Source: Paeniglutamicibacter sulfureus (GTDB lineage Bacteria; Actinomycetota; Actinomycetes; Actinomycetales; Micrococcaceae). Taken from it: DNA of 64,000 nt. The DNA is taken from the NCBI RefSeq assembly GCF_030512175.1, contig NZ_JAULBL010000002.1, forward strand, positions 556,149-620,148. Reading direction: 5' to 3'. The notes beneath the pieces were generated by a model. It had not been told where the DNA came from. It saw only the letters and a list, made by a program, of their open reading frames with translations, and ran no database searches. The translations under genes were made by a program, and so were the position numbers. Position 1 is the stretch's first letter. Every line of letters begins with the position of its first letter. Below, piece after piece: positions 41,316-64,000 of this stretch.

Positions 41316-41723
41316 CTACTTGGCGTCCTGCGCCTCATATTCGGCAAGGACTGCCTTGCCGATCTTGAAAGCGGTGTTGGCCGCAGGCACCGAGCAGTAG
41401 ATGGCCGACTGCAGGAAGACTTCCTTGATCTCGTCCGGGGTCATGCCGTTGCGCAATGCGGCGTGCACGTGCATTTCCAGTTCTTCCCAGTAGCCGCCGG
41501 CGATCAGCGCGGTCAGCGTGATGGCGCTGCGTGTGGTGCGCGGAAGCCCGTCGCGGGTCCAGATGGTGCCCCAGGCGTAGCGGGTGATCATTTCCTGGAA
41601 CTCGTCGGTGAAGTTGGTCGAGTTGGCCGTGGCGCGCTCGACGTGTTCGGTGCCCAGGACCTGCTTGCGGACCTCGAGCCCGGCGTCGTAGGTGTCGCCG
41701 GGCAGGCGGGAAGAATCGGTCAT
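41316..41723 (-). CDS. pcaC: 4-carboxymuconolactone decarboxylase PcaC
   Basis: 135 residues from ATG 41723. Decarboxylates 4-carboxymuconolactone to 3-oxoadipate enol-lactone in the protocatechuate branch of the beta-ketoadipate pathway. Family motifs: RYAWGTIWTRDGLPRTTRS, then MHVHAALRNGMTPDEIKEVF and the end YCSVPAANTAFKIG. The start overlaps the pcaD stop (ATGA). Many actinobacteria carry a fused PcaL (PcaD+PcaC); here the two remain separate and overlap in different frames. Last gene before the terminator. Confidence 0.96.
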   Translation of the reverse strand: MTDSSRLPGDTYDAGLEVRKQVLGTEHVERATANSTNFTDEFQEMITRYAWGTIWTRDGLPRTTRSAITLTALIAGGYWEELEMHVHAALRNGMTPDEIKEVFLQSAIYCSVPAANTAFKIGKAVLAEYEAQDAK

Positions 41724-42535
41724 GCCTTGGTCTCCTGTGTGACGGAAGCAAAGAACTCGACCAACAGTGCGGCGGTCGCCTTCGGGTCCTCGGCCGGGGC
41801 CAGGTGCGCGACGGTGTCGATGGTGGCAGCCTGGGCGTTGGGTGCGTGCTCGGCGATGAACTGCGCGTCGGCCGGAGGGCAGACGACATCGTGGGCACCG
41901 GCGATGGCCAGGATCGGGTCCTGCATGGAGGGAAGCGCCTCGCGCAGGTCGAAGCCGGCCAGGGCGCCGCAGACGTGCGCGTAGGCGAACCGGTCCGCAT
42001 CCTGCAGGTTGTGCAAAAGGTCGGTGGACACCACCGGGTTGGCCTCGATGAAGCCGGGGGCGAACCAGCGCTCGGCCGAACCGGAGAGAACCACCGGGGT
42101 GCCGGCCTTGGCCACGAGCTCGGCGCGTTCCGTCCAGCCCTCCGGGGTGCCAATCTTGGCCGCGGAGCAGATGACCGAGAGCCCGGCGAAGGCACCGGGG
42201 AAGTCGTTGGCCAGCTGCAGGGCAATGGCCCCGCCCACGGAAACGCCGGCGTAGAACAGCGGGGCCGACGCGGTGATGGCCTTGTCGGTCTCCAACGCCT
42301 CGATCATCTTGATGACACCGGCGGCCAGCTCGGCCATGGAGAATTCCTCGGTTGACGGCGCGGACTCGCCGTGGCCGGGCAGATCCCAGGCCACCAGCTG
42401 GAAGTGTTCCTTGAGGAACGGCACGGCCGGTCCCCACAGGGCCAGCGAGCCGGTGCCCAGCGAGGGGCCCAGCACCAGGGTGGGGAGGTCGGCTGCCGAA
42501 TGCAGCAGGGACGGGGTCAGGGCGGGAATGCTCAT
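41720..42535 (-). CDS. pcaD: 3-oxoadipate enol-lactonase PcaD
   Basis: 271 residues from ATG 42535, with GGAAGGA upstream. Alpha/beta hydrolase: LVAWDLPGHGESA, nucleophile region FYAGVSVGGAIALQLA (Ser), acid Asp in AGAHDVVCPP and final His in TVAHLAPAEDP. It hydrolyses the enol-lactone to 3-oxoadipate. It overlaps pcaB by 4 bases and pcaC by 4 bases, so the three are translationally coupled. Confidence 0.94.
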   Translation of the reverse strand: MSIPALTPSLLHSAADLPTLVLGPSLGTGSLALWGPAVPFLKEHFQLVAWDLPGHGESAPSTEEFSMAELAAGVIKMIEALETDKAITASAPLFYAGVSVGGAIALQLANDFPGAFAGLSVICSAAKIGTPEGWTERAELVAKAGTPVVLSGSAERWFAPGFIEANPVVSTDLLHNLQDADRFAYAHVCGALAGFDLREALPSMQDPILAIAGAHDVVCPPADAQFIAEHAPNAQAATIDTVAHLAPAEDPKATAALLVEFFASVTQETKA

Positions 42536-43941
42536 GAGTCCTTCCAATCTGTGAAGTCTTCGCGGATACGGGTAATGAAATCGGTGGCCGAACCCAGGTA
42601 GCCGGCCGGGTCCAGCAGGTCATCGAGGAACAACTGGTTGTCCATGTCCGAGGGCAGCGCCCCCTGCAACAGGGTACGCAACGGGGTGCCGGTGCGCAGG
42701 GAATCAAGGACCAGTTCCTGCACCGCGGCCTTGCCGCCCGCAACCAGGGGTGCTGCGACGGTGGCGATGCGTTCGGAAACCAGCAGGTCCCCGGACAGGG
42801 CCATGTTCCGCGACATGGCCTCGGGGTGCACGACCAGCCCGGTGGCCAGGACTGCCGCATGGTGCGCGGCGCCCCCGGCCAGGCGGACTAGCTCGCGCAC
42901 CGAAGCCCACTCGGCGTGCCAGCCGCCGTCGGGGCGTTCGTCCACCGCCGTGCCGGCGGCGGTGTAGAGCGCGGCAACGTGGGCGGGGGCGGAGAGTGCC
43001 GCGTTGCGCAGCAGCACCGAGTGCACGGGGTTCTGCTTTTGCGGCATGGCCGAGGACCCGCCCTTGCCCGCCTCGCGCGGTTCGGACAGCTCGCCGATTT
43101 CCGGGCGCGAGGCGGTGAGCACGTCGGCGCCGAAGGTGCCCGCGGCGGCGATGACGGATCCCAGCGCGGAGCCGAGCCCCAGCACGGGCTGGCGCACGGT
43201 GTGCCACGGGGCGATCGGTGCGACCAGGCCGAGTTCTGCCGCCAGCGCGGCGGTGAGCTCGTGGGCGCGTTCGGCCAGGCGCTTTTCGGACTTGTACGGC
43301 AGCGCGGAACCCAGGCGCTGGTGCAGCGAGGCCAGGGTGCCCACGGCACCGCCCCATTGCAGCGGCAGGGAGGCGGCGACGGCGTCCAGTTGGCGCCCGG
43401 CGGCGGTGAGGGATGAAAGCCAATTGGCGGCGCGCAGCCCGAAGACCGTGGGCAGTGCATGTTGGGTGAGCGAGCGCGCCACGCACAGCGTCGAGGCATG
43501 GGCCGCACTGATCTCGGACAGGGCGCCGGCTGCGGTGAGCAGGTCGGTGCGGATCCCCGCGATGGAGCGGGAGGCAACGAGCATCAGGGCGGAATCGATG
43601 ATGTCCTGGCTGGTGGCCCCGCGGTGCAGGGCGGTCGCGGCGGTGGCCGGTGCCCCCGTGTCAGCGAGTTGCTTGCGCATCATGCCCAGCAGCGGGATCA
43701 GCGCGTTGGCGCCGTCCGGGCCCGCGGAGGCGAGTGCGGCCAGGTCGTAGAGTTCGACCTTGGCGATCTGCTCCACGGCCTGCGCATCCGCGGAGCTGCA
43801 CAGCCCGGCTTCGGCCTGGACCTTGACCCAGGTTGCCTCGACATCGAGCATTCCCTGGGCGAAGGCGGCGTCCGAGGCGGTTTGCGCCACGGGCGTCGCC
43901 GCCCATGCCGGGGTCAACAATCCGTAATCGGCCGGGTACAT
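42532..43941 (-). CDS. pcaB: 3-carboxy-cis,cis-muconate cycloisomerase PcaB
   Basis: 469 residues of the fumarase/aspartase superfamily. The signature loop is GSSAMPQKQNPVHS, and upstream regions are HRGATSQDIIDSAL and LTQHALPTVFGLRAANW. It cyclises 3-carboxymuconate to 4-carboxymuconolactone, the step after ring cleavage. It begins 172 bases after the pcaG stop, a larger gap than elsewhere in the cluster, so it may have an extra promoter or be reached by read-through. Confidence 0.96.
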   Translation of the reverse strand: MYPADYGLLTPAWAATPVAQTASDAAFAQGMLDVEATWVKVQAEAGLCSSADAQAVEQIAKVELYDLAALASAGPDGANALIPLLGMMRKQLADTGAPATAATALHRGATSQDIIDSALMLVASRSIAGIRTDLLTAAGALSEISAAHASTLCVARSLTQHALPTVFGLRAANWLSSLTAAGRQLDAVAASLPLQWGGAVGTLASLHQRLGSALPYKSEKRLAERAHELTAALAAELGLVAPIAPWHTVRQPVLGLGSALGSVIAAAGTFGADVLTASRPEIGELSEPREAGKGGSSAMPQKQNPVHSVLLRNAALSAPAHVAALYTAAGTAVDERPDGGWHAEWASVRELVRLAGGAAHHAAVLATGLVVHPEAMSRNMALSGDLLVSERIATVAAPLVAGGKAAVQELVLDSLRTGTPLRTLLQGALPSDMDNQLFLDDLLDPAGYLGSATDFITRIREDFTDWKDS

Positions 43942-44113
43942 GGGCGGTGCTTCTCCTGTGGGTCTGTGGTTCGGGGGTGTTGCAGGCGGTGGGGGGGCGT
44001 GAACCCCACAAAACCCCCGCAGCGCGGGAACCCGCCTTTTCCATCATCCCGGTTTGGGAGGGGATCGGCGAGTTCCGTGGCGCACGGGGGTCACATGCGG
44101 GATGCGGCGTTGG

Positions 44114-44707
44114 CTAGCTCTCGCGCGGGTAGGAGAGGAACACTGTTTCGTCCTCGCCCTGGAGCGAAATGTCGAAGCGCAGCGAGCCGTCGGCCTCGCG
44201 GGTGGCGATCAGCGTCTTGCGCTGTGCGTCGTCCAGCGAGGAGAGCAGCGGATCGCTGGCCAGCGCCGCTGTGTCCTCCGGCAGGTAGATGCGGGTGAAC
44301 AGGCGGTTGAGCAGGCCGCGGGCGAACACCGTGAGCATGATGAACGGTGCCTTGCCGGCCTCGGTTGCCCCGGGGTTCAGTGTGGTGAAGGTGTAGTGTC
44401 CGACGTTGTCCACGGCGGTGCGGCCCCAGCCGGTGAAGGTGTAGCCGTCGCGCACCAGCGAGCCGTCCTTGGAGACGATGTTGCCGTGCTCATCGGCCTG
44501 CCAGATTTCCAGCAGGGCGTCGGGGATCACGGTGCCGGCACCGTCGGTGACCACGCCGTGCAGGCGCACCGAAGCAGGGTGGGCCTGGTTGACCAGCTCG
44601 TTGTCCTTCTCGAAGGGCAGCGCGTAGCCGTAGAACGGGCCGATGGTCTGGCCCGGCGTGGCGGCGAGCTTGAGCGCGGGGGCCTGGGTGTTTGGTGACT
44701 GTGCCAT
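44114..44707 (-). CDS. pcaG: Protocatechuate 3,4-dioxygenase alpha subunit PcaG
   Basis: 197 residues from ATG 44707 behind GGGAGA. The intradiol fold is shown by TPGQTIGPFYGYALPF, LEIWQADEHGNIVSKDG, and FTGWGRTAVDNVGHYTFTT. The alpha subunit lacks the iron ligands and completes the active site of PcaH. One base separates it from the pcaH stop. It opens protocatechuate to 3-carboxy-cis,cis-muconate. Confidence 0.96.
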   Translation of the reverse strand: MAQSPNTQAPALKLAATPGQTIGPFYGYALPFEKDNELVNQAHPASVRLHGVVTDGAGTVIPDALLEIWQADEHGNIVSKDGSLVRDGYTFTGWGRTAVDNVGHYTFTTLNPGATEAGKAPFIMLTVFARGLLNRLFTRIYLPEDTAALASDPLLSSLDDAQRKTLIATREADGSLRFDISLQGEDETVFLSYPRES

Positions 44708-44708
44708 G

Positions 44709-45542
44709 TTAGTGATCTCCCTCTTCGTCTTCCATCCAGGTCCGGTTGCTGCCGGTGAGTACGATGTCCCAGTTGTAGCCGGTGGCCCATTCGTGCGACG
44801 TAATCGAGTGGTCGTAGGTGGCGACCAGGCGGTCGCGGGCATCCTTGTCCGTGATCGCCTGGTAGATCGGGTCGAGGGGGAAGAGCGGATCGCCCGGGAA
44901 GTACATCTGGGTGATCATGCGCTGGGTGAAGTCGGTGCCGAAGAGCGAGAAGTGGATGTGCGCCGGGCGCCAGGCATTGTGGTGGTTCTTCCACGGGTAG
45001 GGTGCCGGCTTGATGGTGGTGAAGGAGTATTCGCCGTTGGGTCCGGTGATGGAGCGGCCCACGCCGGTGAAGTTCGGGTCGATCGGGGCAGGGTGCTGGT
45101 CGCGCTTGTGGATGTAGCGTCCGGCGGCGTTGGCCTGCCAGATTTCCACCAGCTGGCCGGCGACCGGGCGGCCGTCTCCATCGAGCACGCGGCCCGCGAC
45201 CACGATGCGCTCGCCGATGGGCTCGCCGTTGTGCTGGATGGTCAAATCCGACTCCAGGGCGTGCACGTCGCGCTCGCCGAAGGCGGGGGAGTGCAGCTCG
45301 ATGGTCTCGGGGTCCGCGTGGTGCAGGTTCTTGGTGGGGTGGCGCAGCAGCGAGGAGCGGTAGGGGGCGAAGTCGATGCGCGGCTGCGTCTCGGCCTTCT
45401 TCCCGTCCACGACCGACTGGCGGTAGGCCGCGTGGATGTCGGTGATTTCCTTGCTGATGGATTCCTGCGAGACGGTCGTGGCGGCGGGGTCCAGGACGTG
45501 CGAATCGTTGAACGTCTCGTTCGCGGTGGTTTGGGTGCTCAC
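44709..45542 (-). CDS. pcaH: Protocatechuate 3,4-dioxygenase beta subunit PcaH
   Basis: 277 residues from GTG 45542 with AAAGGAG upstream; the open frame further up is ignored. The non-haem Fe(III) ligands are in GRYIHKRDQHPAP (Tyr), APYPWKNHHNAW (Tyr) and RPAHIHFSLFG (two His). LVEIWQANAAGRY and NFTGVGRSITGPNGEY are further intradiol motifs. It forms the catalytic heteromer with PcaG. It follows pobA by 58 bases on the same strand. Confidence 0.96.
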   Translation of the reverse strand: MSTQTTANETFNDSHVLDPAATTVSQESISKEITDIHAAYRQSVVDGKKAETQPRIDFAPYRSSLLRHPTKNLHHADPETIELHSPAFGERDVHALESDLTIQHNGEPIGERIVVAGRVLDGDGRPVAGQLVEIWQANAAGRYIHKRDQHPAPIDPNFTGVGRSITGPNGEYSFTTIKPAPYPWKNHHNAWRPAHIHFSLFGTDFTQRMITQMYFPGDPLFPLDPIYQAITDKDARDRLVATYDHSITSHEWATGYNWDIVLTGSNRTWMEDEEGDH

Positions 45543-45600
45543 TGCGTGCTCCTTTCGGTGGGGCGTGCGGATGTGGTGAAGGGGGTGAACGGGGGCGGGG

Positions 45601-46797
45601 CTAGGCGTGCGGCCAGCCGGTGTAGGACTCGGCCAGATATTGCTGTCCATAGCGCGAGGAGGTGACGGTGTCGAGCTCGCCCAGGGCGCGCTTGGCCATG
45701 AACGGGTCGGCGTCCACCGGGGTGTGCAGCATCGAGGTCATCCAGTAGGAGAAGTTCTGCGCCTTCCACACGCGTTTGAGCGCCTTGTCCGAGTAGCCGT
45801 GTAGCAGGGACTCGTTCCGGGTGGAGTAGTAGGAGTCGAGGGCTTCGAAGAGCACCTTGACGTCGGCGAACGCGAGGTTCAGGCCTTTGGCGCCGGTGGG
45901 CGGGACGGTGTGTCCGGCATCGCCGATGAGATACATCCGGCCGTGGGAGAGCGGTTCGCGCACGAACGAGCGGAACTTCAGCACGGTCTTGTCGAAGATG
46001 TTCCCGGTCTTCAGGGTGAACCCGTCCGGCCCGTCGACGCGGCGCTGCAGCTCGTTCCAGATGCGGTCCTGCGACCAGTCATCGACGTTCTCGTTCGGGT
46101 CGCACTGGAAGTACATGCGCTGGACGGTCTCGGAGCGCTGGGAGATCAGCGCGAAGCCGTGCGGGGAGTTGGCGTAGATGAGTTCGGGGGCGGACTTGGG
46201 TGCCTCGGTGAGGATCCCGAACCAGGCGAAGGGGTACTCGACCTTGAAGTCCTTGCGGTTGGTGTCGGGCATCTGCCGGCGGCAGAAGGAGCGCGAGCCG
46301 TCCGCGCCGACCAGCACGTCGCAGTGCACCTCGAACTCGGCACCCGTCTCGTCGGTGAAGCGGAACTTGGGGGTGTCGGTTTCCAGGTCCAGCAGTTCGG
46401 TGACCTCACTGGAGTAGCGCACATCGCCGGCATCGCGCTTGCGTGCGGCGGCGAGGTCGACGAAGACCTCGTTTTGCGCGTAGAGGGTGACGGTGGCGTC
46501 GACCAGGTCGCGGAAGTCCAGCGGGTGGGATTCGCCGTTGAAGCGCAGGTCGATCCCGGCGTGCTCGTCCCCGTGGGTGAGCACGCGTCCCTCGACACCG
46601 GAGTCCACCAGCATCTTCACGGCCTGAGATTCGAGGATCCCGGCACGGTGGGTGTTGCGGATGGTCTCGTGGTCCCGGGCCTCCACGACGATGTTCTCGA
46701 TGCCGGTCTTGGCGAGCAGGTGCGAAAGCATCAAGCCGGCGGGGCCGCCGCCGACGATGCCGACCTGGGTCTTGAGAATGGTGCGCGCTGGTGCCAT
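45601..46797 (-). CDS. pobA: 4-hydroxybenzoate 3-monooxygenase PobA
   Basis: 398 residues from ATG 46797 with AAAGGAA upstream. FAD motif QVGIVGGGPAGLMLSHLL near the start; RAGILESQAVKMLVDSGV; the DG region DVLVGADGSRSFCRR; and MYLIGDAGHTVPPTGAKGLN near 285-305. It makes protocatechuate from 4-hydroxybenzoate using NAD(P)H and O2. Its product feeds the pcaHG genes immediately downstream. A short palindrome lies about 140 bases upstream, but no pobR is in the window. Confidence 0.95.
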   Translation of the reverse strand: MAPARTILKTQVGIVGGGPAGLMLSHLLAKTGIENIVVEARDHETIRNTHRAGILESQAVKMLVDSGVEGRVLTHGDEHAGIDLRFNGESHPLDFRDLVDATVTLYAQNEVFVDLAAARKRDAGDVRYSSEVTELLDLETDTPKFRFTDETGAEFEVHCDVLVGADGSRSFCRRQMPDTNRKDFKVEYPFAWFGILTEAPKSAPELIYANSPHGFALISQRSETVQRMYFQCDPNENVDDWSQDRIWNELQRRVDGPDGFTLKTGNIFDKTVLKFRSFVREPLSHGRMYLIGDAGHTVPPTGAKGLNLAFADVKVLFEALDSYYSTRNESLLHGYSDKALKRVWKAQNFSYWMTSMLHTPVDADPFMAKRALGELDTVTSSRYGQQYLAESYTGWPHA

Positions 46798-46999: not shown

Positions 47000-48046
47000 T
47001 CAGGCCGCGTAAATGGTGACGGCGGTGGCCTTGAGCACGAAGTAGGCGCGGGTTCCAGGCACCAGTCCAAGGTCCGCCAGCGCCGCCGGGGTGATGTCGG
47101 CGGCCAGGTCACCCGCGCGCACCCGGATGGCGTCGCCGTGCGGCTCCAGGTCCGTCACGGTTGCCTCGAGCATGTTGCGCGGGCTTCCGTGTGGCGGTTC
47201 CAGGTACACCGAGACGGCGGAAGCGGGGAATGCCGCGGCCGCCGCCTCGCCGGGGACCAGCTCGGATTCACGAGTTCCGAAGATCCGCCCGAAGGCCGTG
47301 TCGATTCCATCCCCGTGCGCGGTGCCGGTGACGAGGTTCAGCCCGGCGAGCCCGGCGGCGAAGCGGGATCGCGGCCTTCCCAGTACGTCCCGGGTTGGAC
47401 CGCTCTCGGTGATTCGTCCGTTCTCCAAGATGACGACCTTGTCCGCCAGCATGAGCGCATCGAGGATGTCGTGGGTGATGATGATGGCACTGCGCTCGGC
47501 GAGGACGTGTTTGAGCAACCGACGCATCAGGGGCGCGGCGTGGATGTCCAGGGCCGCCATGGGTTCGTCGAGCAACAGCAGGTCAGGGCCCGCTGCCAGC
47601 GCCCGGGCGACAGCGACCCGCTGCGCCTGCCCGCCGGACAGTTCGCCGGGCTTCCGTGCGGCCAGGGTCTGGGTGTCCGTGGCTTCGAGCCATTGACGGG
47701 CCGCCACCCTGGATTTGGCCGCTCCGGTGCCCTTGCTCCGCGGACCGAACGCGACGTTCTCGAGAACGCTCAGGTGCGGAAAGAGCAGGGGTTCCTGCGC
47801 AAGCAACGCGGTGCCCCTCGCGTGCGGCGCCAACCATTGCGGGCGCGCGGAATCGAGGTCAAAGAGCGTGCGCTCGCCGATGGACGCCGTTCCGGAATCC
47901 GGGCGCAGCAACCCGGCCATGATCGAGAGCAACGTCGACTTGCCGGCCCCGTTCGGTCCCAAGACCGCGAGGGTTTCGCCCCGGGCGAGATCCAGGGAGA
48001 CGTCGAAATGCCGTGCGGTGAGCGTGGCTTCAAAACGGATCGTCAC
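47000..48046 (-). CDS. modC: Molybdate ABC transporter ATP-binding protein ModC
   Basis: 348 residues from GTG 48046 (GTGA overlap with modB). Walker A is GPNGAGKST; the Q-loop region is [19 protein letters not shown]; the signature [15 protein letters not shown] is followed by Walker [13 protein letters not shown] and the switch His in IIITHD. The C-terminal part (about 285-345) is a TOBE/Mop domain, [25 protein letters not shown] (written in part). It powers molybdate uptake. Confidence 0.93.
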
Positions 48047-48894
48047 CGTGCCGCCCCCGGCATGGCCTTCTTCGTGCGGTGCCCGCCATAGGACAGGGCC
48101 ACCACGATGACGGCCACGGCAACCAGGACCAGGGACAGGGCCACTGCCGCGTCGGCATCGGTCTCGCGCTGCAGGTAGATCTCCAGGGGCAGGGTCCGCG
48201 TGACACCCTGCAGGGAACCGGCAAAGGTCAACGTTGCCCCGAACTCGCCGAGGCTGCGTGCAAAGGAGAGGACCGCCCCGGAGGCCAAGCCGGGCAGCAC
48301 CAAAGGAAGGCTCACCCGACGCAGCACCGTGGTCGGACGGGCGCCCAGAGTTGCTGCAACGGCTTCGTACTTTCCCCCGGCGGTGCGCAGGGCGCCCTCG
48401 AGGCTGACGACCAGGAAGGGCAGGGCAACAAAGGTCTGGGCCAGAATGACCGCTGTAGTGGAGAACGCGATCTGGATCCCCGCAATCTCAAGACTGCGGC
48501 CCAGCAGGCCCTGGCGCCCGAAGGTGTAGAGCAGGGCGATGCCGCCCACCACGGGCGGCAGCACCAGTGGCAGGAGCACGAAGGCCCGCAGCACGCGCTG
48601 GCCCGGGAAGCTTCCACGGGCCAGGACCAGCGCCAGCGGAACGCCCAAGAGGATGCACAGCATGGTGCTGGCCGCCGAGGTGCGCAGGCTCAACCCCAGC
48701 GCGCTCAGCGAGGATTCGGAGGTGATGAGAGGAATGAACTGGGGCCAATTAACCCTGGCGAGCATCGCCAGCAGCGGGAGCAGCACAAACAATGCTCCCG
48801 CGCAGGCGAGGACGTAAATCCACGAGGGAACGGCGGAGTACCCGGTGCCGCTGCGGCGAAACACCGGGGCCCTACGGCTTTCCGAAGCCGGCAT
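48043..48894 (-). CDS. modB: Molybdate ABC transporter permease ModB
   Basis: 283 residues with five or six membrane helices. The cytoplasmic EAA loop reads [21 protein letters not shown], and [18 protein letters not shown] is the ModB/CysT form. [18 protein letters not shown] is another molybdate/sulfate permease segment. It overlaps modA by 23 bases. It forms the membrane channel with ModC. Confidence 0.93.
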
Positions 48895-49657
48895 CGGCCA
48901 GGACCTTCCTGCCCTCGGGGCCGGTCACGGCGGAGATGAACGAGTTGGCCAGATCCTTGTTAGCGCTGGTGGCGACACCGGCTATCGGGTAGGCGTTGAC
49001 CGCCGTTTTGGATTCGGGGAACTTGATTCCCTTGACCTTGTCGCCGGCCGCCAAGACGTCAGTGACATAGACCAGCCCGGCATCTGCCTCACCGCTGGTC
49101 ACCTTGCCCAATACGTCGGTGACGGAGGATTCCTCACTGACCGGAGTGAGCGTTGTCCTTGCGGCATCCTCGACGCTCTTGGTTGCTGCACCGCACGGTA
49201 CCTGCGGCGCACAGATGACGACCTTCACCCCCGGAGTTGCAAGGTCGGAAAACGTGGCGATCGAGGCCGGGTTGTCCGGTGGGACCGCGATGGCCAGGGT
49301 ATTGGTGGCGAAGGTTGTGGGCGCGCCGTCGACGAGCCCCGCCGCGGAAAGCTTGTCCATGTTGCTTGGGTCGGCCGACGCGAACACATCGGCGGGTGCT
49401 CCGGCGGAGATTTGGGTGACTAGGTCAGAGGACCCGGCGAAGTTCAGCCCGATCGCCGTGCCCGGGTGTTTCGCCTCGAATCCTTCCGCGATCTCGGTAA
49501 ACGGGGCCTTCAGCGAGGCCGCGGCAAATACGGTGATTTCCCCGCTCGGGCCCGCGCCGACCGGTGGTGGCTGAGCGGGGGATGCGCATCCGGCCAGTCC
49601 CAGGACCCATGCCAAGGCGAGGACGATTGCAGCGCCGATCCTGCGGCGGACGCTCAT
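48872..49657 (-). CDS. modA: Molybdate-binding lipoprotein ModA
   Basis: 261 residues from ATG 49657. Lipoprotein signal with hydrophobic core [16 protein letters not shown]; Cys24 is the probable lipidation site. The mature protein begins [18 protein letters not shown], the ModA motif whose Ser/Ala residues bind the oxyanion, followed by [21 protein letters not shown]. It captures molybdate outside the membrane. The start overlaps the stop of the HTH-TOBE gene upstream. Confidence 0.94.
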
Positions 49658-50692: not shown

Positions 50693-50709
50693 GCTGCTGC
50701 CCCTCGGGA

Positions 50710-50752
50710 TTGATAAGAAACTTAATCGTTGACTTTATCAAGAGTTTAAGTT
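50710..50752. promoter_or_regulatory. Interleaved inverted repeats between phdR and phdB
   Basis: TTGATAA (50710-50716) pairs with TTATCAA (50735-50741), and AACTTAA (50719-50725) pairs with TTAAGTT (50746-50752). Two overlapping symmetric AT-rich sites close to the phdR start suit binding of one or two MarR dimers and control in both directions. Confidence 0.65.
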
Positions 50753-50820
50753 GTTATGTATATAGCAAGGTTCCCACGACAGGGTCGGCGGGGGCAATAA
50801 CTACCCTTGAAGGAGCAGAC

Positions 50821-51747: not shown

Positions 51748-51764
51748 AAAGCACCCGCACCACG

Positions 51765-53842: not shown

Positions 53843-53917
53843 GCCAGGGCCCCGGCACCGCCAAAATCCCTACCAAACACGTCAATACCAACCACGTAAT
53901 TAAAAGGAGTACCCATC

Positions 53918-54548: not shown

Positions 54549-56081
54549 ATGTTGAACCAAGGACTTGGAAGCTGGATCCACAAACGCCGCGTGAAGTCGC
54601 ACGGACAAACGGCCGTCATCGACGGCGCGGTGACGCTGCGCTACGAAGAGCTGGCCGAGCGCATCGACAGGCTGGCCAACGCGCTCGCGGGTGCGGGGAT
54701 CGGGCGCGGGGACCGCGTGGCCTACCTGGGCAACAACCATCCCGCCTTCCTCGAGACGCTCTTTGCCTGCGGCAGCCTCGGCGCGATATTTGTTCCGGTC
54801 AACACCAGGCTGGCACCGCGCGAGGTGGCCTTTGCCCTGCAGGATTCCGGAACCAGCCTGCTGGTCAACGCCCGCCAGTTGGAGTCCCTGGCCGCGGCGG
54901 CCACCGAGATCGCCCCCGTCGCCGCGCGGCTCGTCGTGGAGGAGAACCCCGAGACCGTGGGGTCCTACGAGGCGGCCATCCGCTCGGCTTCGGCGGAACA
55001 CCGGGACGAGCCGGTCGCGCTTGAGGACACCGCCATCATCCTCTACACCTCCGGCACCACCGGGAACCCCAAGGGCGCGATCCTGACCCACGGGAACATG
55101 ACGTGGAATTCGCTGAACGTGCTGGTCGACTACGACGTCACCAGTACCCAGGTGGCGTTGATGATCGCACCGATGTTCCACGTCGCTTCCCTGGGGATGG
55201 GCGCGCTGCCCACCCTGCTCAAGGGCGGAACCCTGGTCCTGCAGGACCGCTTCGAGCCCTCGGCTGTGCTGGCGGCCATCGAGCACTACGGCGTCACCGC
55301 GCTCTCCGGGGTGCCGACCACCTACCAAATGCTCGCCGAGCACCCCGCGTGGGAAGCCACCGATCTTTCCTCGATCCGCATGCTCACCTGCGGCGGATCC
55401 GCCGTCCCGATGCGGGTGCTTGAGGCCTACGAGGCCCGCGGGCTGTCCTTTTCCGGGGGCTACGGCATGACGGAAACCGCCCCGGGGGCCACGTCGCTGC
55501 AGCCCGAGTACTCCCGCGAAAAGGCCGGATCGGCCGGTCTTGCGCACTTCTTCACCGGCATTCGCGTCGTCGACGCCCTGGGGGAGGACCTTCCCGCCCA
55601 CGAGGTCGGGGAAATCCTGATCGAGGGCCCCAACGTGATCCCCGGCTATTGGAACCAGGAGGACGCCACGGCGTCCTCCTTCCAGGACGGGACGTGGTTC
55701 AAGTCCGGCGACATGGGGTACCTGGACGACCAGGGTTTCCTCTTCATCGCGGACCGCCTGAAGGACATGATCATTTCCGGCGGGGAAAACGTCTACCCGG
55801 CCCAGGTCGAGCAGGCCATCATGGAATTGCCCGCGGTGGCCTCCGTGGCGGTGATCGGCGTTCCGGACGAGAAATGGGGCGAGGCCGTGCATGCGGTCAT
55901 CGTTCCCGCGGAGGGACAGCACGTCACGCGCGAGGACATCGCCGCCCACCTCGACGGGAAGCTTGCCCGCTACAAGATCCCGCGCACCATCGAGGTCGTT
56001 GCGGACCTGCCGCGCACGGCCAGCGGAAAGATCCGCAAGACCGACCTGCGCGAGAACCACCGCAAGAGCACCCTGGCCTGA
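54549..56081 (+). CDS. phdA: Acyl-CoA synthetase, hydroxycinnamate:CoA ligase (PhdA/CouL-like)
   Basis: 510 residues from ATG 54549 behind GGAAGGAG. ANL-superfamily motifs: ILYTSGTTGNPKGAILTH, GGYGMTETAPG, FKSGDMGYLDDQGFLFIADR, and the C-terminal lysine in TASGKIRKTDLR. It activates a carboxylic acid to its CoA thioester with ATP through an acyl-AMP. Placed 175 bases after phdE in the same direction and closed by a terminator. p-Coumarate, caffeate or ferulate are the expected substrates from context. Confidence 0.9.
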   Translation: MLNQGLGSWIHKRRVKSHGQTAVIDGAVTLRYEELAERIDRLANALAGAGIGRGDRVAYLGNNHPAFLETLFACGSLGAIFVPVNTRLAPREVAFALQDSGTSLLVNARQLESLAAAATEIAPVAARLVVEENPETVGSYEAAIRSASAEHRDEPVALEDTAIILYTSGTTGNPKGAILTHGNMTWNSLNVLVDYDVTSTQVALMIAPMFHVASLGMGALPTLLKGGTLVLQDRFEPSAVLAAIEHYGVTALSGVPTTYQMLAEHPAWEATDLSSIRMLTCGGSAVPMRVLEAYEARGLSFSGGYGMTETAPGATSLQPEYSREKAGSAGLAHFFTGIRVVDALGEDLPAHEVGEILIEGPNVIPGYWNQEDATASSFQDGTWFKSGDMGYLDDQGFLFIADRLKDMIISGGENVYPAQVEQAIMELPAVASVAVIGVPDEKWGEAVHAVIVPAEGQHVTREDIAAHLDGKLARYKIPRTIEVVADLPRTASGKIRKTDLRENHRKSTLA

Positions 56082-56352: not shown

Positions 56353-57351
56353 ATGAAGAAGCGTCTTTCCACGCTCATCGCAGGCGCATCGATTGCCGCG
56401 CTGGCGCTGACCGGTTGCGGCCAGGGCTCGCTTTCCGGCTCGGCCGCGTCCGACAGCGAGTCGGCGGGCGCCTCGGGCGACGGCGCGTTGACGAAGGTGG
56501 TCGTCGGGGTCTTGCCCATCGCCCCGTCCGTGGCGGTGAAGTACGGAATCGACAAGGGGATTTTCGAAAAGCACGGGCTGGACGTGGAATTCACGACCAG
56601 TTCGGCTGGTGCCGCGATGCTGCCCGCTGTCTCCACCGGGGACCTGAACTTTGCCGTCGGCAACCCGCTCTCCGTGCTGACCGCCGTGGACAAGGGCCTG
56701 GACATGAAAATCGTCTCCGGCTACTCGGATTCCAAGGCCGAGGGCGATGACATCAACGGCGTGGTCGTGCGCGCCGACTCGGGAATCAAGGACTTTGCCG
56801 GCCTGGCAGGCAAGACCACCTCGGTCAATGCACTGAAGACGCAAGGCGACCTGACCATCATGGAATCAGCCACGATCGACGGCGGGGACGCGGGCGCCCT
56901 GAAATTCTCGGAGATGCCGTTCCCGGACATGGAAGCCCAGCTCGACCGCGGCAATATGGACGCCGTCTGGCTCCCGGAGCCGTTCCTGTCCAAGGCCCTG
57001 GCCAACCCGGACAACGAACTGCTTGGCTACCCGAACCAGAAGGCCATCCCGGGCTTGCCGACCATGGTCAGCTTCACCAGCGGCAAGTACGCCCAGGAAA
57101 ACCCCGAGGTCGTCGCCGACTTCAAGGCCGCAATGACCGAAACCTTGGCAGCGGCCGAGGGCGACCAGGCCGGCGCCAAGGCCATGTTGCCGGAATTCAT
57201 GAAGATGGACGCCAAGGTGGCCGAAAACCTGAAGATGGAAACCTGGGACGGCGCCGTGCCCAGCGACCAGCTGGCCAAGCTCGCCGAACTCGCAGCCAAG
57301 CTCGAATTCCTCTCCAAGGCCCCGGACGTCGAGGCCATGACCGTCAAGTAG
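56353..57351 (+). CDS. ABC-transporter substrate-binding lipoprotein 1 (NMT1/THI5-like)
   Basis: 332 residues behind AAGGAG. Lipobox ALALTGCGQG: Cys22 would be lipidated. The mature domain is SsuA/NMT1-like: VGVLPIAPSVAVKYGIDKGIF and AAMLPAVSTGDLNFAVGNPL. It is a paralogue of the proteins at 57482 and 62697. Such receptors bind small organic acids, sulfonates or pyrimidine precursors; here an aromatic acid is likely because phd, lig and pca genes surround it. A strong hairpin separates it from the next gene. Confidence 0.88.
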   Translation: MKKRLSTLIAGASIAALALTGCGQGSLSGSAASDSESAGASGDGALTKVVVGVLPIAPSVAVKYGIDKGIFEKHGLDVEFTTSSAGAAMLPAVSTGDLNFAVGNPLSVLTAVDKGLDMKIVSGYSDSKAEGDDINGVVVRADSGIKDFAGLAGKTTSVNALKTQGDLTIMESATIDGGDAGALKFSEMPFPDMEAQLDRGNMDAVWLPEPFLSKALANPDNELLGYPNQKAIPGLPTMVSFTSGKYAQENPEVVADFKAAMTETLAAAEGDQAGAKAMLPEFMKMDAKVAENLKMETWDGAVPSDQLAKLAELAAKLEFLSKAPDVEAMTVK

Positions 57352-57384
57352 CCGCCGCGCCCCCGGGCGCGACATGCAGCAACC

Positions 57385-57424
57385 GGCGTGCGGCGCGGAG
57401 GGGGCACTCCCCGCGCCGCACGCC
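57385..57424 (+). terminator. Strong hairpin between two binding-protein genes
   Basis: GGCGTGCGGCGCGG (57385-57398) and CCGCGCCGCACGCC (57411-57424) form a perfect 14-bp stem. No T-run follows. It may terminate part of the transcripts or protect the upstream mRNA, giving more binding protein 1 than downstream membrane parts. Confidence 0.7.
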
Positions 57425-57481
57425 CAACGATCCATGGCGGGGCATCCCGCCGCACCCACCGTCAAGGCACGATGAGGATTC

Positions 57482-58459
57482 ATGAGAAACAAACTTGCAC
57501 TCGCAATGGCCGCACTGGGGATCCTGGCCCTGGGCGCCTGCGGTTCGGGGTCGCCCAGCGGCCAGACCGCCTCCACGGCTGCGGATGGCGGAGCCGGCCT
57601 GGAGAAGATCACCGTCGGAGTCATCCCGATCGTGGACACCGCGCCGATCTTCTTGGGCGACTCCAAGGGCTTCTTCGAAGCCGAGGGCCTGGACCTGGAC
57701 ATCCAGACCGCCACCGGCGGCTCGGCCATCGTGCCGGGGATCCAATCAGGAAGCTACGACTTCGCCTTCTCCAACTACGTCTCGCTCATGGTCGCCAATG
57801 ACAAGGGCCTGAGCATGAAGGTCGTTGCCAACGGCGTGACCACCTCCGGGAACGAGGACGGGGACTTCGGTGCCGTGGTGGTCCCGAAGGACTCGCCCAT
57901 CAAGAGTCCGAAGGACCTGGCAGGCAAGAAGGTCTCGGTGAACAACCTTTCCAACATCGGAGACATCACCGTTTCGCAGGTCGTCAAGGACGACGGCGGG
58001 GATCCGAGCACCGTTGACTTCGTCGAGGTTCCGTTCCCCGAGGCCCCGGCGGCCCTGGAAAACGGCATAGTGGATGCCGCCTGGATCCTCGATCCCTTCC
58101 TGGTCCAGGCCAAGGGCGACGGCGCGCGGGTCGTGAGCAACAACTTCTCCGACTTCGATGCGGAACTGGACATCGCCGGCTACTTCACCTCCACGGACAA
58201 GGTCGCCGCCGAACCCGAGCTGACGGCCAAGTTCCAGCGCGCCATGAACAAGTCGCTGGAATACGCGAACGAGAACCCGCAGGAGGTCCGCGACATCGTG
58301 GGCACCTACACCAAGATCGACGAGGAAACCCGCGCCAAGCTGGTGCTGCCGCGCTACCGCGTGGACATCAACAAGGACGCAGCACAGAAGCTCGGCGACG
58401 CGACCCGGGAATTCGGGGCCATTTCCAAGCCCGTTGACCTCGAGACCCTGTTGCCATGA
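57482..58459 (+). CDS. ABC-transporter substrate-binding lipoprotein 2 (NMT1/THI5-like)
   Basis: 325 residues. Lipobox ILALGACGSG (Cys20). The mature part contains VGVIPIVDTAPIFLGDSKG, then GFFEAEGLDLDIQTATGGS and ALENGIVDAAWILDPFLV. More similar to the protein at 62697 than to the one at 56353. The stop overlaps the first permease gene (ATGA), so this is the receptor most directly tied to the transporter. Ligand unknown; aromatic acids are suggested by context. Confidence 0.9.
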   Translation: MRNKLALAMAALGILALGACGSGSPSGQTASTAADGGAGLEKITVGVIPIVDTAPIFLGDSKGFFEAEGLDLDIQTATGGSAIVPGIQSGSYDFAFSNYVSLMVANDKGLSMKVVANGVTTSGNEDGDFGAVVVPKDSPIKSPKDLAGKKVSVNNLSNIGDITVSQVVKDDGGDPSTVDFVEVPFPEAPAALENGIVDAAWILDPFLVQAKGDGARVVSNNFSDFDAELDIAGYFTSTDKVAAEPELTAKFQRAMNKSLEYANENPQEVRDIVGTYTKIDEETRAKLVLPRYRVDINKDAAQKLGDATREFGAISKPVDLETLLP

Positions 58460-59295
58460 CCCATACGACCGAACCATCGACGCGCGCCGCGGTGAAGGCC
58501 AAGGCCTCCCGCGCGCCGTCCAAGGGTCTGCCGAAGTGGGTGTTGGGTCTGGTGGGCATCGTGGTGTTCCTGGGGTTCTGGGAGCTGATGCCGGCACTGG
58601 GCGTGGTGCAGGCCAAGTACCTGCCGCCGGCTTCCGAGGTCATCGCGGCGCTGGTGACGGACCTGGGTTTGACGGCGTTCTGGGTGGCCGTGGGTGACAC
58701 CATGGCCGCCTGGGCGATCGGGTTGGCGATTGCGGTGGTGGCCGCGCTGGTGTTGGGCCTGGTGATCGGGATGTCCCCGTTTTTGCGCCGCTTCACCAAC
58801 TCGTCCATCGAGTTTTTGCGTCCGATCCCGTCGGTGGCGCTAATCCCGCTGGCGGTGCTGCTCTTTGGCATCAAGATCGAGTCCTCGCTGCTGTTGATCG
58901 TTTACGCCTGCTTCTGGCAGGTTCTCATCCAGGTGCTCTACGGGGTGGCGGACGTGGACAACGTGGCGATGCAGACTGCGCGGTCCTACGGCTTCTCCTA
59001 CGCGCAGCGGGTGCGGGACGTTGTGTTCCCCACGATGCTGCCGTACCTGATGACGGGTATCCGATTGGCCGCTTCGGTGGCGCTGATCCTGGCGATCACC
59101 GCGGAGTTGCTGATCGGGTCCCCGGGGCTGGGCAAGGAGATTGCCTTGGCGCAGTCCGGCGGCGCGATCTCGGGGATGTATGCGTTGATCCTGGCCACCG
59201 GGTTCCTGGGTGTGGGCATCAACGCGGTGACGCGGGTGGTGGAGAAGCGGGTGCTGTCCTGGCACCCGTCGGTTCGCGGGGAGGCGACGGTATGA
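58456..59295 (+). CDS. ABC-transporter permease 1 (SsuC/TauC-like)
   Basis: 279 residues with about six membrane helices. Motifs: GFWELMPALGVVQAKYLPP near the start and the EAA loop, MQTARSYGFSYAQRVRDVVFP. Typical of nitrate/sulfonate/taurine-type importers. It overlaps both neighbours (ATGA type). It pairs with the second permease to form a heterodimeric channel, whereas most members of this family use a single permease as a homodimer. Confidence 0.92.
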   Translation: MTHTTEPSTRAAVKAKASRAPSKGLPKWVLGLVGIVVFLGFWELMPALGVVQAKYLPPASEVIAALVTDLGLTAFWVAVGDTMAAWAIGLAIAVVAALVLGLVIGMSPFLRRFTNSSIEFLRPIPSVALIPLAVLLFGIKIESSLLLIVYACFWQVLIQVLYGVADVDNVAMQTARSYGFSYAQRVRDVVFPTMLPYLMTGIRLAASVALILAITAELLIGSPGLGKEIALAQSGGAISGMYALILATGFLGVGINAVTRVVEKRVLSWHPSVRGEATV

Positions 59296-60065
59296 AAACC
59301 CTGAAATCCTTCGGCTACCTGTTGGGGTTGCCGCTTATCCTGTTGGCCTGGTGGTGGCTGGCGACCTCTGGGGAGCCTAACTTCTTCGTGCCCACCCCGG
59401 CGAAGCTTCTGACGACGTTCGTGGAGACCTGGTTCGGGGAGCGGATGCTCACCGACGTGCTACCCAGCATCATGCGCCTTCTCGTCGGCGTGCTGGCCGC
59501 GATCGTACTGGGCATTGTGCTGGGGCTGGCCGTGGGCCTGAACCGCACGCTGCGTGCGGTGACCGAGCCGGTGTTCGAGTTCTTCCGCGCGCTGCCGCCC
59601 CCGGTGCTGGTGCCGGTGCTGATGCTGCTGGTGGGCATCAACGACGGGATGAAGATCGCCGTGATCATTTCCGGCTGCGTCTGGCCGGTGCTGCTGAACA
59701 CCATCGAGGGCGTGCGTTCCATCGACCCGGTGCAGAACGAGACCTCGCGGTCCTACGGGATCACCGGGTTCTCCCGGATCCGCTACCAGATCCTGCCTTC
59801 GGCGACCCCGACGATCATGGCCGGCGTGCGCCAGGCGCTGTCCATCGGGTTGATCCTGATGGTCATCTCCGAGATGTTTGCCTCGTCCTCCGGCCTGGGG
59901 TTCACCATCGTGCAGTTCCAGCGGTCCTTCGCGGTCCCGGAAATGTGGTCCGGCATCGTGGTGCTGGGGCTGATCGGCGTGGCCCTGTCCTTCATATTCC
60001 AATGGGTCCAGCGGCGCGTGCTGCGCTGGTACCACGGCCTGAAAGAGGTTGAAAATGCTGTCTAA
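59292..60065 (+). CDS. ABC-transporter permease 2 (SsuC/TauC-like)
   Basis: 257 residues, about six membrane helices. The EAA loop is NETSRSYGITGFSRIRYQILP, and the N-terminal LILLAWWWLATSGEPNFFVP matches the family start. It overlaps the first permease by 4 bases and runs 11 bases into the ATPase gene. Its sequence differs from permease 1, so the pair did not arise by a very recent duplication. Confidence 0.92.
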   Translation: MKTLKSFGYLLGLPLILLAWWWLATSGEPNFFVPTPAKLLTTFVETWFGERMLTDVLPSIMRLLVGVLAAIVLGIVLGLAVGLNRTLRAVTEPVFEFFRALPPPVLVPVLMLLVGINDGMKIAVIISGCVWPVLLNTIEGVRSIDPVQNETSRSYGITGFSRIRYQILPSATPTIMAGVRQALSIGLILMVISEMFASSSGLGFTIVQFQRSFAVPEMWSGIVVLGLIGVALSFIFQWVQRRVLRWYHGLKEVENAV

Positions 60066-60918
60066 CAATCCCACGTCCCACCAAGGCGGGCGGACCCTGC
60101 CCGAGGGGCAGGCACTGCTGTCGGTCCGCGGACTGAAGAAGGTCTATCACACCGATGCCGGGGACATCGAGGCGGTGCGGAACCTGACCTTTGATTTGGG
60201 CCGCGGCGAGCTGGTTTGCCTGGTCGGTCCCTCGGGCTCGGGCAAGACGACGCTGCTCAAGTGCATTGCCGGGCTGTTGGGCACCACCGAGGGCGAGGTG
60301 CTGCTGGACGGGCAAAAGGTCACCGGGCCGCCGAAGAAGATGGCGGTGGTGTTCCAGGAATACGGCCGCTCCCTCTTCCCCTGGCTGCGGGTGGCCGAGA
60401 ACGTCGAGTTGCCGCTGAAAAACGCCGGGGTTCCCAAGGAGGAACGCAAGCGCCTGGTGGCCGAAGCGCTGGAGGCGGTGGGCCTGGCGCACGTGCCCAA
60501 GTCCTACCCGTGGCAGCTCTCCGGCGGCATGCAGCAGCGCGTGGCGATCGCCCGCGCCGTGGCCTACCAGCCCGAGGTGCTGTTGATGGACGAGCCCTTC
60601 GCCGCGGTGGACGCGCAGACCCGTGCGGACCTGGAGGACCTGATCCGCAGTGTCTGGAAGAAGCTGGGCGTCACGGTCCTGTTCGTCACCCACGACATCG
60701 ACGAGTCGATCTACCTGGGGGAGCGGGTGATCATCCTGTCCTCCTCCCCGACGATCGTGCAGGAGGACATCATGATCGACCTTCCGGCCGAGCGGGACCA
60801 GCTGGAGACCCGGTCGCTGCCGCGCTTCACCGAGCTGCGCCACCACGTGTATGCGGAGATCCAGAAGGCCAAGCAGGGGCACCGCCCCGAGGAAGCCATC
60901 ACCATGACCGCCAAGTAG
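60055..60918 (+). CDS. ABC-transporter ATP-binding protein (SsuB/TauB-like)
   Basis: 287 residues from ATG 60055 behind AGAGG. Walker A GPSGSGKTTLLKC; Q-loop VVFQEYGRSLFPW; signature LSGGMQQRVAIARAVA; Walker B VLLMDEPFAAVD; switch His in LFVTHDIDESIYLGERV. It energises the two permeases before it. Followed by a hairpin shared with the convergent ligM transcript. Confidence 0.94.
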   Translation: MLSNNPTSHQGGRTLPEGQALLSVRGLKKVYHTDAGDIEAVRNLTFDLGRGELVCLVGPSGSGKTTLLKCIAGLLGTTEGEVLLDGQKVTGPPKKMAVVFQEYGRSLFPWLRVAENVELPLKNAGVPKEERKRLVAEALEAVGLAHVPKSYPWQLSGGMQQRVAIARAVAYQPEVLLMDEPFAAVDAQTRADLEDLIRSVWKKLGVTVLFVTHDIDESIYLGERVIILSSSPTIVQEDIMIDLPAERDQLETRSLPRFTELRHHVYAEIQKAKQGHRPEEAITMTAK

Positions 60919-60989: not shown

Positions 60990-62696
<1,707 letters not shown>

Positions 62697-63695
62697 ATGA
62701 AAAAGATCAAGGGGGCCCTGGCCCTGCTTGCGGCATTGAGCCTGGCCGCCTGCGGCAGCGGATCGCCGTCGAGCGGCCCGGCCGAATCGTCCACGGGGGC
62801 GGCGACTGGCAGTGGTGCGGCCACCGCGCTGGAACAGATCGAGGTTGGCGTGATCCCGATCGTCGACGTTGCCCCGATCTACCTTGGGGTCAAGGAGGGG
62901 CTCTTTGAAAAGGAAGGCCTAGACGTCAAGCTGACCCTGGCCCAAGGCGGAGCGGCCATCGTCCCGGCCATCACGAGCAAGCAGATGGACTTCGGCTTCT
63001 CGAACGTCACCTCCATGATCGTGGCCCGTTCAAAGAACCTGCCGCTGAAGATGGTGGCACCCGGGGGCAGCTCCACCGGCGACACCAAGGCGGACTTTGC
63101 CGCGGTGATGACCAAGCCGGACAGCGGCATCAAGGACATCAAGGACCTGGTGGGAAAGAAGGTCGCCGTGAACACCCTGAACAACATTTCCGACTCCACC
63201 ATCAGCGAGGCCGTGAAGCTGGCCGGCGGAGACTACACGAAGGTTCAGTTCGTGGAGATGGGCTTCCCCGACATGGCGGCACAGCTCGCTGCCGGCAACG
63301 TCGATGCGATGGCGGCGGTCGAACCCTTCGTGACCATCTCCGAGGCAGACGGAAACGTTCCGGTCTTCTCCAACTACGCCGAGCCGGTCGATGACCTGAC
63401 CGTCGCCGTCTACTTCACCTCGGATGAGTACATCGAGGAGAATCCCGAAACGGCGGCCAAGTTTGCCCGGGCCATGATTGCCTCGCAGAAGTTCGCCGAT
63501 GAGAACCCGGATAAGGCTAAGGCGGTTCTTCCCGACTACACCTCGCTGGAACCGGACGTGATTGAGAAGCTCACGATGCCCCGCTTCTACACCGAGGTGA
63601 ATGAGGCTTCCATTGAGAAGATTGCCGAGATCTCGCTGGACCGCGGGCTCATCGAGCAGGTCCCGGATCTTGCGGCACTGCTGCCTGCCAAGTAG
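62697..63695 (+). CDS. ABC-transporter substrate-binding lipoprotein 3 (NMT1/THI5-like)
   Basis: 332 residues behind GGAG. Lipobox ALSLAACGSG (Cys19). The mature part has VGVIPIVDVAPIYLGVKEG, then GAAIVPAITSKQMDFGFSN; clearly paralogous to the receptor at 57482. It has no permease or ATPase of its own and is divergent from ligM, so it probably serves the permease-ATPase set at 58456-60918, perhaps with a methoxylated ligand such as vanillate. Ends at a strong hairpin. Confidence 0.9.
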   Translation: MKKIKGALALLAALSLAACGSGSPSSGPAESSTGAATGSGAATALEQIEVGVIPIVDVAPIYLGVKEGLFEKEGLDVKLTLAQGGAAIVPAITSKQMDFGFSNVTSMIVARSKNLPLKMVAPGGSSTGDTKADFAAVMTKPDSGIKDIKDLVGKKVAVNTLNNISDSTISEAVKLAGGDYTKVQFVEMGFPDMAAQLAAGNVDAMAAVEPFVTISEADGNVPVFSNYAEPVDDLTVAVYFTSDEYIEENPETAAKFARAMIASQKFADENPDKAKAVLPDYTSLEPDVIEKLTMPRFYTEVNEASIEKIAEISLDRGLIEQVPDLAALLPAK

Positions 63696-63714
63696 CACGC
63701 AGATGACATGACGG

Positions 63715-63754
63715 CGGTGGCCCGCCGGGAATGAGATTTCCCGGCGGGCCACCG
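63715..63754. terminator. 17-bp terminator hairpin between convergent genes
   Basis: Perfect arms of 17 bp at 63715-63731 and 63738-63754 around TGAGAT. It separates binding protein 3 from the convergent reductase fragment and probably serves both. Confidence 0.88.
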
Positions 63755-63774
63755 TTGTCGCATGTTGTTGGGCG

Positions 63775-64000
63775 TCAGCGATGTGCGGCGACCCAGTCCG
63801 CGGTCGTCTCGATGCCGCCGAAGGTGTAGAAATGTAGCTTGATCTGTCCGTGCAGCGTCGGGACATGGTCCCGGGCCAGGTCCGCGACGAAGCGCTCGGG
63901 CCCGGCGGTTCCCAGCAGGTTCCCCAGGGAGAATCCGTAGCGCTTGGCTATCCCCGCGGAGGAGGCGACGCCGAACCTCCGGGCGTAGCCCAGCAGCCGC
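63775..64000 (-). CDS. Methylenetetrahydrofolate reductase, C-terminal part (runs off the right edge)
   Basis: Only the last 75 codons are inside the window; the stop TGA is at 63777-63775. The visible sequence includes RFGVASSAGIAKRYGFSLGN, then LLGTAGPERF and LHGQIKLHFYTFGGIETT, the C-terminal pattern of MetF-type reductases. The enzyme interconverts 5-methyl- and 5,10-methylene-THF. Next to ligM it may oxidise the methyl-THF produced by demethylation, as MetF does in Sphingobium. The identification rests on a short fragment. Confidence 0.72.
   Translation of the reverse strand, partial: RLLGYARRFGVASSAGIAKRYGFSLGNLLGTAGPERFVADLARDHVPTLHGQIKLHFYTFGGIETTADWVAAHR

Follow-up and report, generated by a model that had tools for sequence, protein, structure and literature searches.

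Why would a bacterium keep two unlike enzymes for one step, the demethylation of vanillate, and could the two be under common control? The question is raised by a 64,000-nucleotide stretch of the 4.55-Mb genome of Paeniglutamicibacter sulfureus (C9:556149-620148; hereafter the window), which carries ligM, encoding a tetrahydrofolate-dependent O-demethylase, among genes for the catabolism of lignin monomers. Just past the end of the window lies vanR-vanAB, encoding a PadR-type regulator and a Rieske-type vanillate demethylase. We consider it likely, with a probability of roughly 0.7, that a single VanR/PadR regulon drives the oxygen-dependent and the folate-dependent vanillate demethylases within a complete hydroxycinnamate, vanillate and 4-hydroxybenzoate locus.

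Two vanillate demethylases and a candidate shared operator

The features central to this reading are as follows, with positions counted from the first nucleotide of the window, also past its end, and profile scores given in bits.

60990..62396, minus strand: ligM, tetrahydrofolate-dependent vanillate/3-O-methylgallate O-demethylase (NF047885 895.8, cut-off 580)
62503..62526, plus strand: VanR-type operator-like site between ligM and sbp3 (matrix score 28.5, held out of training)
62618..62641, plus strand: second operator-like site, on the sbp3 side (matrix score 22.4; exact CTATNNNNATAGNTA)
62697..63695, plus strand: sbp3, NMT1/SsuA-type solute-binding protein, divergent from ligM (TIGR01728 127.2, cut-off 163.5)
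63775..64000, minus strand: metF of the Sphingobium SYK-6 type, 3' end in the window, gene continuing to 64632 (PDB 7xg9 272.7)
64804-65385, minus strand: vanR, PadR regulator (PF03551)
65502-66596, plus strand: vanA, oxygenase with Rieske and VanA_C domains (PF19112, PF00355)
66633-67643, plus strand: vanB, ferredoxin-type reductase (PF00111)

A preliminary description of this DNA had named ligM, and the score of its product, far over the cut-off of the family model, bears this out. Residues 2-464 align with LigM of SYK-6 (PDB 5x1i) at 753 bits, and Y246 and R121 align with a tyrosine and an arginine of that structure, both invariant in 13 of 13 aligned proteins; we take these to be the catalytic Tyr247 and Arg122 of the SYK-6 enzyme. 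The window's LigM would thus demethylate vanillate with tetrahydrofolate as the acceptor. It is not the only predicted vanillate demethylase of this genome, as a Rieske-type VanAB is encoded too, with vanA beginning 1.5 kb beyond the window end, although neither VanA nor VanB matches an NCBIfam model over its cut-off (search to E 1e-20). As VanAB may stand in for a lost LigM, a ligM mutant that still grows normally on ferulate might give a misleading picture.

VanR matches PDB entries 6lg2 and 5z7b over residues 1-191 at 171.8 bits, indicating full-length kinship with what are presumably structures of the VanR of Corynebacterium glutamicum. MetF matches 7xg9, which we take to be the SYK-6 MTHFR enzyme (S6MTHFR), at 272.7 bits, the second-best structure match reaching 20.5, and it falls under the cut-off of the Pfam family MTHFR (PF02219; 20.3, cut-off 24). 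A second, canonical MetF is encoded elsewhere in the genome. The MetF beside vanR appears to be of the SYK-6 type and is predicted to oxidise 5-methyltetrahydrofolate, and one FTHFS and three PurU proteins over their cut-offs, encoded elsewhere, could handle the one-carbon unit.

The vanR-vanA intergenic region contains two inverted repeats that are conserved in four genomes, and an operator matrix was trained solely on these eight sites. When 88,852 bp around the window were scanned with it, the top matches outside the training set both fell between ligM and sbp3, at 62503 (28.5) and 62618 (22.4), while the best match on the same sequence reversed scored 12.5. The exact pattern CTATNNNNATAGNTA at 62618 occurs on average 0.00 times in shuffles; in the whole genome it is found at four places, three of which are these promoters, that of metF included, with none in the backwards control. 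(The fourth match, C9:860999, falls where a frame that looks LysR-like by eye ends, and is taken as chance.) The three closest relatives (L043-L045) retain the candidate sites between ligM and sbp3.

The same matrix was applied to 76 further LigM loci (L046-L121; L043-L045 were excluded, having supplied training sites) from a sample of the best 80 of at least 572 relatives. In 38 of the 76, the highest-scoring position anywhere in the locus was 0-300 bp upstream of metF or ligM; 100 column-permuted matrices put through the same test achieved this in 6.0 loci on average and in 16 at most. Among actinobacterial loci with both a PadR gene and metF, a top site so placed is present in 27 of 29, falling to 1 of 6 where there is neither and 0 of 1 with PadR only, and to 1 of 20 in the Pseudomonadota. 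In one congener (L136), VanR-type sites scoring 29 and 28 are also seen upstream of sbp2 and behind the ATPase gene of an importer described below (at 7235 and 10990 in the turned stretch), hinting that this importer may have joined the VanR regulon there.

In the scheme that we find most likely, VanR would act through a shared predicted operator, an inverted repeat on CTATNNNNATAG with flanks ACT/AGT, to repress vanAB, ligM and sbp3, perhaps metF as well, and vanillate would release VanR and so turn these genes on. The demethylation of vanillate would then follow two routes. VanAB, the Rieske pair, would use oxygen and release formaldehyde, and LigM would hand the methyl group over to tetrahydrofolate. 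The resulting 5-methyl-tetrahydrofolate would be converted to methylene-tetrahydrofolate by the SYK-6-type MetF, from which the one-carbon unit would pass to FTHFS and PurU. The genes, their families, the cassette as set against empty sites and the shared motif are observed; VanR binding, its effector, the direction of the insertion, the enzyme activities and the flux are what we infer.

Several observations weigh against a shared regulon, or against parts of it. The site upstream of metF (64675), next in rank after the two above, is borderline: its score of 13.1 is close to the 12.6 of an unrelated position (8028) and to the 12.5 of the reversed sequence, so that the matrix score by itself cannot settle its standing. 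The exact pattern was picked after the sites were known, and the ligM-side site at 62503 deviates from it. Actinobacterial loci with metF but no PadR gene in reach have the top site before metF or ligM in only 9 of 20 cases, and in two Arthrobacter loci that carry the cassette (L049, L050) the operator site was not found. The tested loci are also phylogenetically dependent, many being from Microbacterium. Two matters taken up below count here as well: the direction of the cassette's movement is read from comparison of present-day loci, and the identities of the phd-type genes rest on family composition and order, which is weaker evidence.

It might be argued that the region is an ordinary lignin-monomer island in which ligM is a spare, uncoordinated gene and the motif is a general PadR half-site or a property of AT-rich promoters. 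Such promoters do attract matches, as the permuted matrices show by reaching 6 of 76 loci on average and up to 16, and the metF site is borderline. The real matrix nonetheless more than doubles the permuted maximum, three of the four places with the core pattern in the genome are these promoters, and the sites have been kept between ligM and sbp3 in the closest relatives; we therefore regard this explanation as improbable. A division of labour is a more serious possibility, to which we would give somewhat less than even odds, and it is compatible with a common regulon: LigM and VanAB may differ in substrate (for example 3-O-methylgallate as against vanillate) or in the oxygen supply under which they serve. 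The LigM family model covers both vanillate and 3-O-methylgallate, and near ligM several relatives encode a second protein that matches the model less well (about 440-565 bits), a LigM paralogue that is probably DesA-like, whereas the window's genome has no such paralogue, its other three matches scoring at most 72.8 bits. The distribution of the two enzymes is also in keeping with separate roles. Among 295 genomes sampled from the family, VanA is found in 65 (search to E 1e-90), and it occurs together with LigM in 37, where 17 would be expected by chance if kinship is ignored, a count that takes in all 78 genomes with LigM.

In 9 of these 37 genomes the two genes are at most 30 kb apart, namely the eight LigM carriers of the genus and G007. 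The distances comprise 84 entries for 118 ligM rows, G004 among them without coordinates; the VanA genomes with ligM rows outside this set are G104, G007 and G027, and by eye no such row lies within 30 kb of VanA.

The ligM-sbp3-metF cassette and the ancestry of LigM

In the window's genome ligM-sbp3-metF stands directly before vanR-vanAB. Eight of the 15 genomes sampled from the genus (its own included) have LigM, and the seven without it offer a view of the locus in its absence. Three of them (L130-L132) have an empty site, in which the importer ATPase gene is followed directly by vanR-vanAB. In a DNA alignment with L130 the match breaks off at 60919 and resumes at 64804; the intervening 3.88 kb, which hold ligM, sbp3 and metF in the window's genome, have about 0.1 kb as their counterpart in L130. 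Two others (L133, L134) have vanRAB elsewhere, beside pcaFIJ, and in the remaining two (G094, G141) no VanA match was found. Loci of other genera (L137-L139) likewise have the importer and then the van genes, without ligM. By comparison, the cassette is between the importer and vanR in all four of the other carriers fetched (L135, L136, L140 and L141, of seven that exist), L135 having one extra binding-protein gene in the same interval.

The cassette therefore appears to have been inserted between the importer and vanR. Gain is favoured over loss because ligM-sbp3-metF also occurs in Arthrobacter (L046-L050) and in L089 with no vanAB in the flank examined. Many other actinobacterial loci are arranged differently, with a gap of some 0.9 kb separating metF from ligM and a PadR gene after ligM; in the one such locus inspected, from Brevibacterium (L063), the gap holds a purU-like frame.

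Across the family, LigM over the cut-off is found in 78 of the 295 genomes, in 17 genera. The preliminary description had considered the mixture of phd-type genes, known from Actinobacteria, with a LigM best known from sphingomonads to be unusual, a view that these counts do not sustain. A relative of PhdC (search to E 1e-50) is encoded in 128 of the 295 genomes and in 76 of the 78 with LigM, and it lies at most 25 kb from ligM in 24 of the 78, representing 7 of the 17 genera.

The same description implied that ligM had reached an actinobacterial locus by recent horizontal transfer from sphingomonads, and an identity of about 70-71% to Novosphingobium LigM, across phyla, might seem to favour this. 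We inspected a quick tree of 106 proteins from 79 loci and the window, drawn from the best-80 sample, of which 91 rows were called LigM (over 60% identity) and 15 were paralogues. All 20 Pseudomonadota LigM rows form one clade (support 100), while the window's LigM is among the Micrococcaceae inside a separate actinobacterial clade of 52 rows (support 95); a further 19 actinobacterial rows fall outside both (support 82). A recent sphingomonad origin is ruled out as far as this tree can decide, and we give it hardly any credence, whereas some old transfer of LigM between phyla is likely. The closest named relatives in the sample are from Arthrobacter sp. AQ5-05 and Paeniglutamicibacter psychrophenolicus, both at 94% identity. 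Some of the paralogues in relatives, scoring about 450-565 bits (for example in G030:C8, G119:C3 and G102:C1), have an in-frame stop within the matched frame.

From hydroxycinnamates to 3-oxoadipate

The remaining genes of the region are the following.

41316..41723, minus strand: pcaC, 4-carboxymuconolactone decarboxylase (TIGR02425 159.1, cut-off 155.7)
41720..42535, minus strand: pcaD, probable 3-oxoadipate enol-lactonase (TIGR02427 206.6, cut-off 255.85)
42532..43941, minus strand: pcaB, probable 3-carboxymuconate cycloisomerase (TIGR02426 290.5, cut-off 355.75)
44114..44707, minus strand: pcaG, protocatechuate 3,4-dioxygenase alpha (TIGR02423 186.8, cut-off 126.25)
44709..45542, minus strand: pcaH, protocatechuate 3,4-dioxygenase beta (TIGR02422 344.8, cut-off 296.4)
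45601..46797, minus strand: pobA, 4-hydroxybenzoate 3-monooxygenase (NF006091 509.6, cut-off 351)
47000..50064, minus strand: probable modABC and HTH/TOBE regulator for molybdate, outside the aromatic pathway (TOBE, SBP_bac_11, BPD_transp_1, HTH_17)
50225..50692, minus strand: phdR, MarR regulator, divergent from phdB (PF01047)
50821..51747, plus strand: phdB-like SDR dehydrogenase (PF13561)
51765..52658, plus strand: phdC-like amidohydrolase (PF04909)
52655..53842, plus strand: phdD-like acyl-CoA dehydrogenase (PF00441, PF02770)
53918..54373, plus strand: phdE-like MaoC hydratase (PF01575)
54549..56081, plus strand: phdA-like acyl-CoA synthetase, an AMP-forming ligase (PF00501)
56353..60918, plus strand: NMT1/SsuA-type ABC (ATP-binding cassette) importer, comprising sbp1, sbp2, two permeases and an ATPase (PF09084, PF00528, PF00005)

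In the scheme that we propose, p-coumarate and ferulate would be imported, and the phd-type enzymes would activate and shorten them, yielding 4-hydroxybenzoate or vanillate; PobA would convert 4-hydroxybenzoate to protocatechuate, and PcaHGBDC with PcaIJF would complete the beta-ketoadipate route.

The pobA, pcaHG and pcaBDC genes are present as first described (41316-46797, minus strand), closely packed in the order pobA-pcaH-pcaG-pcaB-pcaD-pcaC, with ATGA overlaps at pcaB/pcaD and pcaD/pcaC. The first part of a PcaDC profile matches the pcaD product at 246.3 bits, and we considered a frameshifted pcaDC fusion; this was ruled out, as the ATG of pcaC at 41723 overlaps the pcaD stop and the two are separate genes without a frameshift. 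The absence of pcaIJF, reported earlier as the one gap in the pathway, does not hold: pcaF-pcaI-pcaJ are at 82487-85087, 18-21 kb beyond the window end, with a gene for a PcaR-type IclR regulator after them. With pcaFIJ and vanAB both found just past the window, the route from hydroxycinnamates to 3-oxoadipate is well supported as complete by gene content, and the apparent gap was an effect of the window edge.

Not all of these names are equally firm. PcaHG, PcaC and PcaIJ score over their cut-offs, while PcaB, PcaD and PcaF (443.2, cut-off 597) are under theirs for the equivalog models, and these three names rest on context. The top match of PcaB is in fact nitrosuccinate lyase (369.5 against a cut-off of 650). 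PobA is likewise under the cut-off of a second model, TIGR02360 (397.8, cut-off 538.7).

The phd-type gene products match broad families only. The families expected for phdR-phdBCDE-phdA are indeed at 50225-56081, as the preliminary description had it, and their composition fits phdA-E with phdR; it is the specific names that lack closer matches. We take the gene order to resemble that of the phd cluster of C. glutamicum, and the cou genes of Rhodococcus jostii are presumably comparable as well. Between phdR and phdB, a palindrome-like stretch (50748-50771) is a candidate MarR operator, with a weak score of 11.4 for the VanR matrix. The ligase gene phdA precedes sbp1 in the window, as it does in L138 and L139 of another genus, and follows sbp1 in eight of the nine congeners fetched, the ninth stretch (L134) stopping at sbp1; the congeners' copies are 68-70% identical to the window's, which would suggest replacement or rearrangement. 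A second PhdC-like amidohydrolase, 54% identical, is encoded at G000:C9:956548-957414.

An importer was also described for the region, and the one that fits is the NMT1-type system at 56353-60918, whose proteins match the SsuA-type NCBIfam models under the cut-off. The ABC genes at 47000-50064 were considered as an aromatic importer and ruled out, since the HTH and TOBE protein, the SBP_bac_11 protein and the TOBE ATPase resemble modABC. Farther away, 19176-21203 encodes a phenol-hydroxylase-type monooxygenase dependent on flavin adenine dinucleotide (PF01494, PF07976), and genes for an HMGL-like protein and a 2-hydroxycarboxylate transporter precede it.

Known systems and the meaning of a possible shared control site

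The closest known counterpart of the cassette is the ligM-metF-ligH operon of SYK-6, in which, according to the available text of the reports, LigM adjoins an unusually short MetF (S6MTHFR) and the methyl group is passed to tetrahydrofolate (PMC6888825, PMC12585457). There MetF oxidises the methyl group that LigM has passed to folate, and similar gene sets are present in many other bacteria (PMC12585457). The window's genome differs in having no ligH adjoining and sbp3 between ligM and metF, in having a PadR gene rather than the MarR gene desR as the nearest regulator, with a Rieske vanAB alongside, and in cleaving protocatechuate at the 3,4- rather than the 4,5-position.

On the regulatory side the parallel is C. 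glutamicum, in which a PadR-type VanR adjoins vanAB in VanR-vanABK and derepression in vivo by ferulate, vanillin and vanillate is described in the part of the report available (PMC8358305). Here, by contrast, the ligM-sbp3 interval has a site of the same type too, and the region upstream of metF may have one. The phd cluster of that organism, too, combines an acyl-CoA synthetase with CoA-dependent phenylpropanoid degradation, as the accessible portion of its description states (PMC10576375), with the difference that an ABC importer replaces the PhdT transporter in the present locus.

Two mechanistically distinct O-demethylases, LigM and the VanA-like DmtS, have been described together and termed redundant in Novosphingobium aromaticivorans. 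That organism is a proteobacterium, its DmtS is about 27% identical to VanA, and the available text describes no common regulator (PMC8091115). LigM-type enzymes in Actinobacteria have been published for a Micromonosporaceae metagenome-assembled genome (PMC9296663), and genes of Arthrobacter sp. GBD-1 have been annotated as vanillate/3-O-methylgallate O-demethylase (PMC5547118); the accessible parts of these two papers describe no neighbourhood or regulation like that of the window. Neither the enzymes nor their coexistence are therefore new in kind. The regulators named in the available part of one account are PadR-type VanR for vanAB and MarR-type DesR for ligM (PMC12314914), and among the titles and abstract openings listed we saw no report of VanR/PadR control of ligM, though others may exist. 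What seems to be new is a pair of unlike demethylases that appear to share one control site; the pathway itself is ordinary.

Extended beyond this strain, the proposal is that in many Actinobacteria a metF and ligM module belongs to the VanR regulon, and that in this genus a mobile, operator-bearing cassette has come to lie beside vanR-vanAB, so that one vanillate signal would turn on both the demethylase that yields formaldehyde and the one that does not, and sbp3 would supply the shared importer with a binding protein dedicated to vanillate. We hold this wider version to be somewhat better than an even bet.

The use of lignin is held back at the step in which methoxylated aromatics are demethylated. 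The VanAB route produces toxic formaldehyde and demands oxygen and reductant, while the LigM route feeds the folate pool. In a strain that seemingly switches on both through one regulator, the question of why cells keep both becomes directly testable, and the work also provides a predicted operator for ligM loci in the Micrococcaceae, Microbacteriaceae and Brevibacteriaceae.

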